Shown piece after piece: positions 31,669-48,263 of a stretch of 64,000 nucleotides of DNA (positions are counted from its first letter, which is position 1; each line of letters starts with the position of its first letter). The DNA lies in contig NZ_VOWY01000007.1 in NCBI RefSeq assembly GCF_008014645.1, forward strand, positions 186,001 through 250,000, written 5' to 3'. The translations under genes were made by a program, and so were the position numbers. The notes beneath the pieces are model-generated. The model worked only from the letters and a program-made list of their open reading frames with translations. It searched no databases and was not told the origin of the DNA. Origin of the DNA: Collinsella sp. BA40. GTDB taxonomy: Bacteria; Actinomycetota; Coriobacteriia; Coriobacteriales; Coriobacteriaceae.

Positions 31669-32043
31669 AGACGACGCCGATGCGGCGCGGGACTCGGTGG
31701 GGAGGTGGTGGGACGCGCGGTTGCCGGGTGCGGCCGGTAGGGCTTCGCGCCCGCTTGCCAGCGGCCCGCCGTGCGCATGGTGGGAGGCTGGTGGGACGGA
31801 TGGCCGTATCGGGGCCGATCGAGAGGGTGGGGATTGGGGAGCGCCACTGCCCCTCGTGGCGGCGTTCCAGGCCTGTAGCGCTGCATATTTTGCCGTTTCC
31901 TTCGGGAATGACCCAAAGTATAGTGGTCTGTTCAATTCCTTGTCCATGCGAAGCGCTATAGTACGGCTATCGATGGGGCGTTGGGGATCTCCACCTCATC
32001 TACCTGCGGCTTCACAGTCGACTCACAACTGAATAAAAATCGG

Positions 32044-32067
32044 TTCAAGCTCAACTTGAAGGTTATC
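32044..32067 (+). promoter_or_regulatory. element A, shared with ftsZ upstream region
   Basis: It contains the perfect dyad TTCAAG-N5-CTTGAA (32044-32060) followed by GGTTATC. It matches 47051-47074 upstream of ftsZ at 19 of 24 positions. The dyad looks like a MerR-family operator (compare SoxR sites). Confidence 0.5.
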
Positions 32068-32112
32068 CTCCCCTTGGTTCCGTGGCGTTGATGGTGCTTA
32101 TCACCGTATCTA

Positions 32113-32130
32113 ACACAACATGTAGTGTTT
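32113..32130 (+). promoter_or_regulatory. element B, shared with ftsZ upstream region
   Basis: AACATGTAGTGTTT (32117-32130) corresponds to AACATACAGTGTTT at 47027-47040; only two positions differ, both transitions. Here it lies in a near-palindrome ACAC-N8-GTGT. Confidence 0.45.
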
Positions 32131-32179
32131 ACTCTGCGCCCTGAATCCCGTCTCCGCATCTCTCCCATGTGTCATGGTG

Positions 32180-32204
32180 TGGGAGGGTGGGGGAGAGGGT
32201 GGGA
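32180..32204 (+). promoter_or_regulatory. MraZ-box array
   Basis: TGGGA (32180), GGGGA (32190) and TGGGA (32200) are spaced exactly 10 bases apart. This matches the TGGGN-N5 direct repeats bound by MraZ in other bacteria. It lies just upstream of the -35 element, so autoregulation is expected. Confidence 0.7.
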
Positions 32205-32211
32205 AAAAGTG

Positions 32212-32240
32212 TTGCGAAAAGTACCGCTAGCCCATAAGAT
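32212..32240 (+). promoter_or_regulatory. mraZ (dcw) promoter
   Basis: TTGCGA (32212-32217), 17-base spacer, TAAGAT (32235-32240). A start near 32247 leaves about 60 bases before the mraZ GTG. Confidence 0.7.
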
Positions 32241-32308: not shown

Positions 32309-32740
32309 GTGATCTTGACCGGAACATACGAGCGCAATCTCGATGCCAAAGGTCGTTTGTCCCTGCCTGCTGCCGTCCGCGACGAGCTCTCGACGCACGT
32401 GTACGTGTTGCCCGCACCCGATGTCGATGCCCTGTATGTGTTCTCGAGCGACGAGTATGAGAAGTGGGTCATGGCCCTCTTCGAGAAGCGCGGCGGTTTC
32501 GACCCCCGTAAGCGCGAGGACCAGGCGCTCATGAGGAAGATCAATTCGATGGCGACGCCGATGGATATCGACTCCGCCTCCCGTATCGGTCTTTCCGAAG
32601 CGCTTCGCGAGAAGAAGCATCTCTCTCGCGAGGTCACCGTGGTGGGCAACTTCGACCACCTGGAGATCTGGGACCGCGCAACCTGGGATCAGGCGCAGCA
32701 AGAGTCCGATGAAGACCTGGCAGACCTCTTCTATTCGTAA
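32309..32740 (+). CDS. mraZ: MraZ transcriptional regulator
   Basis: A 143-residue protein with two SpoVT/AbrB-like halves; first gene of the dcw cluster and its DNA-binding regulator. The N-terminal GTYERNLDAKGRLSLPAAVRD is the family signature, and SMATPMDIDSASRIGLSEALRE starts the second half. The GTG at 32309 is chosen because MraZ proteins begin a few residues before GxY and because GGGAGG lies eight bases upstream; an ATG at 32261 would add 16 unconserved residues. Its likely operator is at 32180-32204. Confidence 0.95.
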   Translation: MILTGTYERNLDAKGRLSLPAAVRDELSTHVYVLPAPDVDALYVFSSDEYEKWVMALFEKRGGFDPRKREDQALMRKINSMATPMDIDSASRIGLSEALREKKHLSREVTVVGNFDHLEIWDRATWDQAQQESDEDLADLFYS

Positions 32741-46954: not shown

Positions 46955-47001
46955 TTTACCTGGTATTTGATTACCAAATTCACAATTGATGCGGTATACG
47001 T

Positions 47002-47074
47002 TTGACAAGTGCCGCAAAAACATGCAAACATACAGTGTTTTACCTCTACGTTTAATCTGAACTTGAGGGTTACC
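47002..47074 (+). promoter_or_regulatory. ftsZ upstream region with elements B and A
   Basis: The 222-base ftsQ-ftsZ gap is AT-rich. It holds TTGACA (47002-47007, a -35 consensus, but without a good -10 at normal spacing), element B (47027-47040) and element A (47051-47074). Both elements also occur upstream of mraZ, in the opposite order. Confidence 0.5.
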
Positions 47075-47129: not shown

Positions 47130-48263
47130 ATGCACGAGAACGAGATCAACAACTATCTTGCCGTCATCAAGGTGGTCGGCGTGGGCGGCGGCGGCACCAA
47201 CGCGGTCAACCGAATGATCGAAGAGGGTATCCGCGGCGTCGAGTTCGTCGCCATCAACACCGACGCGCAGGCGCTCGCGATCTCCGATGCAGATATCAAG
47301 GTCCACATCGGCACCGACCTCACGCGCGGCCTGGGCGCCGGCGCCAACCCCGAGGTCGGCCGCAAGGCCGCCGACGAGAGCCGCGACGACATCGCCGAGG
47401 CCCTTGCCGGCGCCGATATGGTGTTCATCACCGCGGGCGAGGGCGGCGGCACCGGTACCGGCGCGGCCCCCATCGTCGCCGATATCGCCATGAACGAGGT
47501 CGGCGCGCTGACCGTGGCCGTCGTCACCAAGCCGTTCACCTTCGAGGGCCGCAAGCGCAAGAAGGCGGCCGAGGAGGGTATCAAGACCCTGTCCGACAGC
47601 GTCGACACCCTCATCGTCATCCCCAATGACAAGCTGCTCGACATCGCCGAGAAGAAGACCACCATGCTCGAGGCCTTCTCCAACGCAGACGGCGTCCTCT
47701 CCCAGGGCACCCAGGGCATCACGGACCTCATCACCGTCCCCGGCGTCATCAACCTGGACTTCGCAGACGTGAAGACCATCATGCGCCAGGCCGGCACCGC
47801 CATGATGGGCATCGGCGTCGCCTCCGGCGACTCCCGTGCCGTCGACGCCGCCCAGCAGGCCATCTCCAGCCGTCTGCTCGAGAGCTCCATCGATGGCGCC
47901 ACGCGCGTCCTGCTCTCCATCGCAGGCTCCAAGGACCTCGGCATCCAGGAGATCAACGACGCCGCCGACCTCGTCGCCAACGCCGTCGACCCCGAGGCCA
48001 ACATCATCTTCGGTACCGTCGTGGACGAGTCCCTGGGCGATCAGGTGCGCATCACCGTTATCGCCACGGGCTTCTCCGATTCCAACGTCAACCGCCAGGA
48101 CGACCTGTTCGCCCAGTCCCAGGCCCAGGCTAAGGCCGAGGCCGCGGCTCCCGCTCATGCCGCGCAGGCTGCCCCCACGCGCAACGTCGGCGGCACCGAG
48201 CTTCCCAATTTCGGCAACGACCAGTTCGAGCTGCCCGATTTCCTCAAGCGCGGCAACTTCTAA
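47130..48263 (+). CDS. ftsZ: cell division GTPase FtsZ
   Basis: Tubulin-like GTPase forming the Z ring. 377 residues. [19 protein letters not shown] is the N-terminal nucleotide loop, the tubulin signature [12 protein letters not shown] is near residue 105, and the T7 loop NLDFADVK is near 208. An Ala/Gln-rich linker of about 40 residues leads to the conserved C-terminal peptide [12 protein letters not shown], which in Actinobacteria binds SepF and FtsW-type partners. GGAGG lies nine bases before the ATG. No ftsA precedes it. A strong terminator follows. Confidence 0.98.

Follow-up and report, generated by a model that had tools for sequence, protein, structure and literature searches.

Predicted control by FtsR, NrdR and MraZ at the start of the dcw cluster in Collinsella and its relatives

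The start of the division and cell-wall (dcw) cluster in Collinsella sp. BA40 appears to be controlled by three regulators, namely FtsR, which would be shared with the ftsZ promoter, NrdR and MraZ, a reading to which we assign a probability of about 0.7 and in which all binding is predicted. A dcw-type cluster, flanked by mraZ at one end and ftsZ 15 kb away at the other, lies within the 64,000-nucleotide stretch that was analysed (the window). In the proposed mechanism, FtsR would bind the ftsZ and mraZ promoters and raise both together, having been recruited in the family of the window also to mraZ and to genes of PcsB-like cell-wall proteins. NrdR, a repressor that senses dNTP/ATP, would occupy the strong box of mraZ and a weaker box about 16 bp upstream of it, lowering dcw transcription together with ribonucleotide reductase, and repeats of the MraZ type would lie on the mraZ core promoter. 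This reading builds on the observed sequence, conservation, co-occurrence and genome-wide specificity of the sites, and its more novel part is the predicted NrdR-type operator heading the division cluster. In the open-licence PMC literature, no report of an FtsR or NrdR site at mraZ was found, nor any FtsR literature beyond PMC6683498.

The comparative set comprised 80 further stretches from the class, each reaching from mraZ to ftsZ and up to 20 kb long. Families are numbered so that f1 is the window's own, f2–f6 belong to the same order (f2 being probably Atopobiaceae), and f7 and above belong to other orders of the class. Since six of the 81 rows contain no mraZ in their stretch (L133, L158, L179, L182, L188 and L192), the mraZ rows number 75; moreover, many of the family genomes are closely related, and genome counts therefore overstate the independent evidence. 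A search for relatives based on MurD gave 78 loci, two of which (L009 and L010) were useful, and the remainder, from distant bacteria, were left out.

Table 1. Features at the two ends of the cluster, in window coordinates.
Feature	Position	Strand	Remarks
mraZ	32309..32740	+	Pfam MraZ, 2.4e-22; GTG start set by homologue alignment; first dcw gene
ftsZ	47130..48263	+	Pfam Tubulin and FtsZ_C
mraZ copy of element A, putative FtsR operator	32040..32064	+	register as in the 25-bp site of C. glutamicum
ftsZ copy of element A, putative FtsR operator	47047..47071	+	59–83 nt 5' of the ftsZ start
Possible second NrdR box (weak)	32081..32096	.	16-bp spacing; 5/14 positions; half-site kept
NrdR-box-like palindrome ACACAACATGTAGTGT, full mraZ element B	32113..32128	.	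contains most of 32117-32130
TGGG/TGTTG repeats about 10 nt apart, MraZ-binding-repeat-like	32178..32211	+	from sequence; conserved in alignment
Predicted mraZ core promoter TTGCGA-N17-TAAGAT	32212..32240	+	TTG..A-N17-TA...T conserved in many relatives
Block TTTGAC...TGCAAACATA...GGTTTACCT 5' of ftsZ element A	47001..47032 (to 47045 with GGTTTACCT)	+	strongly conserved in the alignment of 25 f1 rows
ftsZ copy of element B (rejected)	47027..47040	+	chance match by shuffle test; not palindromic in relatives

Elements A and B at the two ends of the cluster

The first-pass annotation had described two elements, A and B, as shared between the upstream regions of mraZ and ftsZ in opposite order, which proved correct for A and not for B. 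The two copies of A agree at 19 of 24 positions, and the mraZ copy contains the dyad TTCAAG-N5-CTTGAA as a perfect core at 32044-32060, both as originally described. Element A can stand alone, because pairs of 24-mers with 19 matches never arose in 300 shuffles of both upstream regions, on either strand. For B, the reported match of 12 out of 14 is present, but 23% of shuffled pairs reach this value somewhere, and the ftsZ copy forms no palindrome in relatives; a NrdR-like box with at least 12/14 matches was found upstream of ftsZ in none of the 25 f1 rows. Because B fails both the shuffles and the ftsZ alignment, one shared element and one element confined to mraZ are retained. The suggestion that one MerR-like regulator, similar to FtsR, serves both promoters divides in the same manner: operator match, presence of the ftsR gene, co-occurrence and conservation speak for it at A, whereas B is not shared and is NrdR-like.

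The NrdR-like palindrome of mraZ

At the mraZ element B, the f1 alignment reveals a conserved palindrome, AACACAAnATnTTGTGTT, and the window sequence fits the NrdR box consensus, ACACWANATNTWGTGT, perfectly. The element looks like a NrdR box, the site of a regulator other than FtsR; as the gene downstream is mraZ and no reductase, it is here termed NrdR-like at a new target and not a standard operator. On the 5' side of mraZ, the rows read by eye mostly carry a XerC/D-like recombinase and no reductase, which makes mraZ the natural target of the box.

In the Collinsella genome itself, the only perfect match is the mraZ site, and the sole match with one mismatch lies upstream of nrdD, the gene of the anaerobic reductase. 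Perfect boxes occur in 53 of the 63 family genomes (0/63 for the reversed control), with one or two per whole genome in most members of the genus, and a NrdR gene is found in 63/63, the genome's own copy scoring 180 bits. Among 29 new box loci, 16 lie before mraZ and nine before nrdD, while the other four include two with a vitamin-B12-type (nrdJ-type) reductase, a third assigned to this type by eye, and L232. As in known NrdR systems, boxes here mark nrdD and nrdJ-type genes. In the 21 kb of L009, one of the two useful relatives from the MurD search, the strand that was read carries a single 14/14 box, some 150 nt 5' of mraZ; the best box of L010, the other relative, reaches 11/14.

According to PMC12051234, NrdR boxes at reductase promoters are pairs of 16-bp palindromes 15–16 bp apart, an arrangement that the mraZ region may resemble; unlike known pairs, the target here is the division and cell-wall cluster and the second box is degenerate, most of all in the window's family. 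A NrdR operator is expected to have a second box at 14–17 or 24–27 bp; in a joint test for box pairs, mraZ rows pass in 23/24 cases in f1, 16/28 in f2, 9/11 in f3, 1/1 in f4 and 1/1 in f5, with 0/10 in other orders. The corresponding counts for ftsZ, which served as control, are 1/25 in f1, 3/29 in f2 and 1/12 in f3 (5/66 together) and 1/15 in the remaining families, and nrdD passes in 30/30. The partner is best visible in f2, where the position 32 nt 5' of the best mraZ box is the most box-like, averaging 7.15 of 14 vs a maximum of 5.86 in 300 shuffles; this peak corresponds to the 16-bp spacing, and at nrdD promoters of the same group the partner reaches 7.5 at that same 32-nt distance. In f1, the partner peak at mraZ is modest (2.5 sd with 19 non-redundant rows, 1.9 sd with 20 non-redundant rows), and in the window the pair test gives a score of 19 (p 0.02) that stems mainly from the strong box.

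Two features of these counts weigh against the reading favoured here, namely that the pair score of f1 derives mostly from the single strong box and that f2 passes in only 16/28 rows, and so do the match of the window's partner box at no more than 5/14 positions and the statement in PMC12051234 that NrdR is unable to bind a single box. The weak partner in f1, set beside this reported need for two boxes, gives some room to an alternative in which A is the FtsR operator at both promoters and the mraZ palindrome is bound by another regulator that has a NrdR-like box. We consider this unlikely, since the box marks nrdD and nrdJ-type genes, perfect matches were read almost only there and at mraZ, and sister families have the partner box at NrdR spacing.

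Element A and the FtsR operator

The FtsR operator of Corynebacterium glutamicum is AACCCTAAAGTAAAGGTTGAGGGTA, with half-sites 7 bp apart, and the site of Mycobacterium tuberculosis is similar, right halves of the TTGAGG type and the 7-bp gap being common to both species (PMC6683498). Both copies in the window, TTCAA-N7-TTGAAGGTT at mraZ and TTTAA-N7-TTGAGGGTT at ftsZ, have the register and half-site spacing of this published operator and fit a 25-bp inverted repeat with a 7-bp gap, their left half-sites being imperfect. The interpretation of element A as a FtsR operator is well supported computationally, with the binding predicted. In operator type, spacing, regulator family and location of a site at the ftsZ promoter, the system is like FtsR-ftsZ in C. 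glutamicum and Rv1828-ftsZ in M. tuberculosis, as described in PMC6683498. Unlike FtsR in those two species, it has a second site before mraZ and more before PcsB-like genes. The ChAP-Seq table for C. glutamicum in that source contains nine FtsR peaks and none at mraZ, which counts against the favoured reading, and the main text of PMC6683498 has 0 occurrences of the name mraZ.

FtsR is encoded elsewhere in the Collinsella genome, where NF050798, a NCBIfam equivalog, scores 199 bits vs a cut-off of 150. The gene lies directly behind a FHA-domain gene, and this succession is the actinobacterial gene order. Across the class, FtsR exceeds the cut-off in 171/246 genomes. In f3, matches are no better than E 2.5e-14 in all 68 genomes and are taken as other MerR proteins, no convincing FtsR being found there. 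A consensus built from the published FtsR sites and scored against shuffles finds ftsZ sites in 18/25 rows of f1, 24/29 of f2 and 0/12 of f3, and mraZ sites in 17/24, 1/28 and 0/11 rows, respectively. Sites at ftsZ are present in f1, f2 and most other families that encode FtsR, with one exception, the f19 row G144, whose ftsZ site is present although FtsR was not found in the genome (91% complete). Scan counts and FtsR survey together therefore imply that the ftsZ site tracks FtsR across the class and that the mraZ site is an addition of f1. Family f3 is without FtsR (68 genomes) and without the ftsZ site (0/12 rows), yet retains the NrdR-type pair at mraZ (9/11 rows). The genes nrdR and ftsR are about 6 kb apart (L322, G000:C2:104000-116000), and the ORFs beside nrdR resemble, by eye, lexA and a dUTPase gene.

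In the f1 alignment, element A is kept at both promoters amid variable flanks, the opposite of an element that decays while its surroundings hold, and equally good matches are not found elsewhere, CTTGARGGTTA occurring twice in the 1.93-Mb genome, only at mraZ and ftsZ. With a matrix trained solely on the f1 ftsZ sites and about 39,000 positions ranked per genome, the mraZ site is the top match outside the ftsZ promoter in 21/24 f1 rows, located 249 to 268 nt upstream of the mraZ start; three of the 25 training sites (L122, L134 and L196) were wrongly anchored, a fault that makes the matrix weaker and introduces no bias towards mraZ. It counts against the favoured reading that A at mraZ is absent in L120, L123 and L127 and weak in L125 (4/24 f1 rows). 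L120, L123 and L127 belong to the same genus, have genomes of 1.7–1.9 Mb, and retain both the FtsR site at ftsZ and a NrdR-type box.

The absence from three genomes of the same family, along with the low counts in f2 (1/28) and f3 (0/11), would suit a mraZ copy of A that has decayed or lost its function, leaving the ftsZ site as the only one that matters. This seems improbable, however, given the near-fixed position of the site in 21/24 rows and all six genera of the family, with variable flanks around it. Still less probable is binding of A by a different member of the MerR family, for instance the HspR-like one: the genome has four MerR_1 matches, one of them a HspR equivalog, but A sites follow FtsR, the MerR-family protein surveyed, across families, and the half-sites of the HspR element stand in the opposite order. 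Chance or base composition explains the ftsZ copy of B, as the shuffles indicate, but is largely refuted for A and the mraZ palindrome, which are conserved and rare genome-wide, the match of A never being reached in the 300 shuffles, and as an account of both elements it is very improbable.

Under the FtsR interpretation, further candidate targets emerge from the genome. The A pattern with at most two mismatches occurs at 12 places, of which the rows examined were mraZ, ftsZ, C27:44930 and C28:268705 (two overlapping); at most three mismatches yield 92 matches vs 32 for the reversed control, and the low-scoring tail is therefore probably largely noise. Three tandem FtsR-like sites (G000:C27, L211:1500-1626) precede a secreted-protein gene (1678-2715, + strand) whose match to the PcsB coiled coil is weak (0.00073, below the cut-off), and a palindromic FtsR-like site (G000:C28, L219:1501-1527) precedes another (306-1457, - strand) whose product carries a lytic-transglycosylase-type domain. 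Among the 30 best-scoring PcsB-like loci out of 63 genomes, FtsR-like sites, defined by scores reached by at most 5% of shuffles, lie within 230 bp 5' of the gene in 30/30, at similar positions. A palindromic match at C22:7159 was rejected as a target, as it falls inside an ORF that resembles, by eye, an ATP synthase subunit.

Promoter arrangement and meaning for the order

At ftsZ in f1, the last TA of the element opens a TAnnnT hexamer, and a hexamer resembling TCGACA stops just 5' of the element, the spacer between the hexamers being 20 bp in 22/25 rows and the mean -35 match 3.6 of 6. A promoter of the MerR type is taken here as one with -35 and -10 hexamers 19–20 bp apart and the operator between them, and we infer that the f1 operator, by filling the 20-bp gap, adopts the classical arrangement of MerR-type activators. 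The site of M. tuberculosis Rv1828 likewise sits between the -35 and -10 of the ftsZ promoter (PMC6683498), as proposed for ftsZ here. The window's own copy reads TACCAG, without TAnnnT, and is among the 3/25 exceptions, which counts against the favoured reading. The conserved block 5' of this operator is probably a second ftsZ promoter plus a further element.

The situation at mraZ is different in that no convincing -35/-10 pair was found around A, judged by eye in the f1 alignment, and this too is a point against. Well over 100 nt separate A from the predicted core promoter on its 3' side; the call of this promoter rests on the alignment, because the automatic scan favoured a downstream pair in the window row. 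With the A and B sites 120–190 nt 5' of the start predicted for mraZ, distance also counts against the favoured reading, and action from so far upstream, like binding itself and the direction of regulation, is put forward here as a prediction. E. coli MraZ binds short repeats, and those at the mraZ promoter here resemble MraZ-binding repeats. Their tandem arrangement on the core promoter recalls the autoregulation of dcw by MraZ, the repeats of Mollicutes being AAAGTG[T/G] (PMC8475190); unlike in MraZ autoregulation systems, two additional upstream operators are predicted here.

Considered together, dcw may be a NrdR target across the order Coriobacteriales, so that nucleotide supply would repress or release division and wall genes along with ribonucleotide reductase. 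FtsR would be an addition in one family, where a single promoter region would integrate the status of DNA precursors, a FtsR signal shared with ftsZ and PcsB-like proteins, and MraZ feedback; for this wider picture, we see the odds as even. Little is understood of how bacteria link division and DNA synthesis through transcription. The predicted NrdR operator heading the division cluster is retained throughout an order to which common gut bacteria belong, and offers a cheap and concrete test of such coupling. FtsR, which is little studied, would be extended from ftsZ alone to a predicted regulon of division-cluster and cell-wall genes. If true, division genes would be tied to the supply of DNA precursors via a NrdR-type site.
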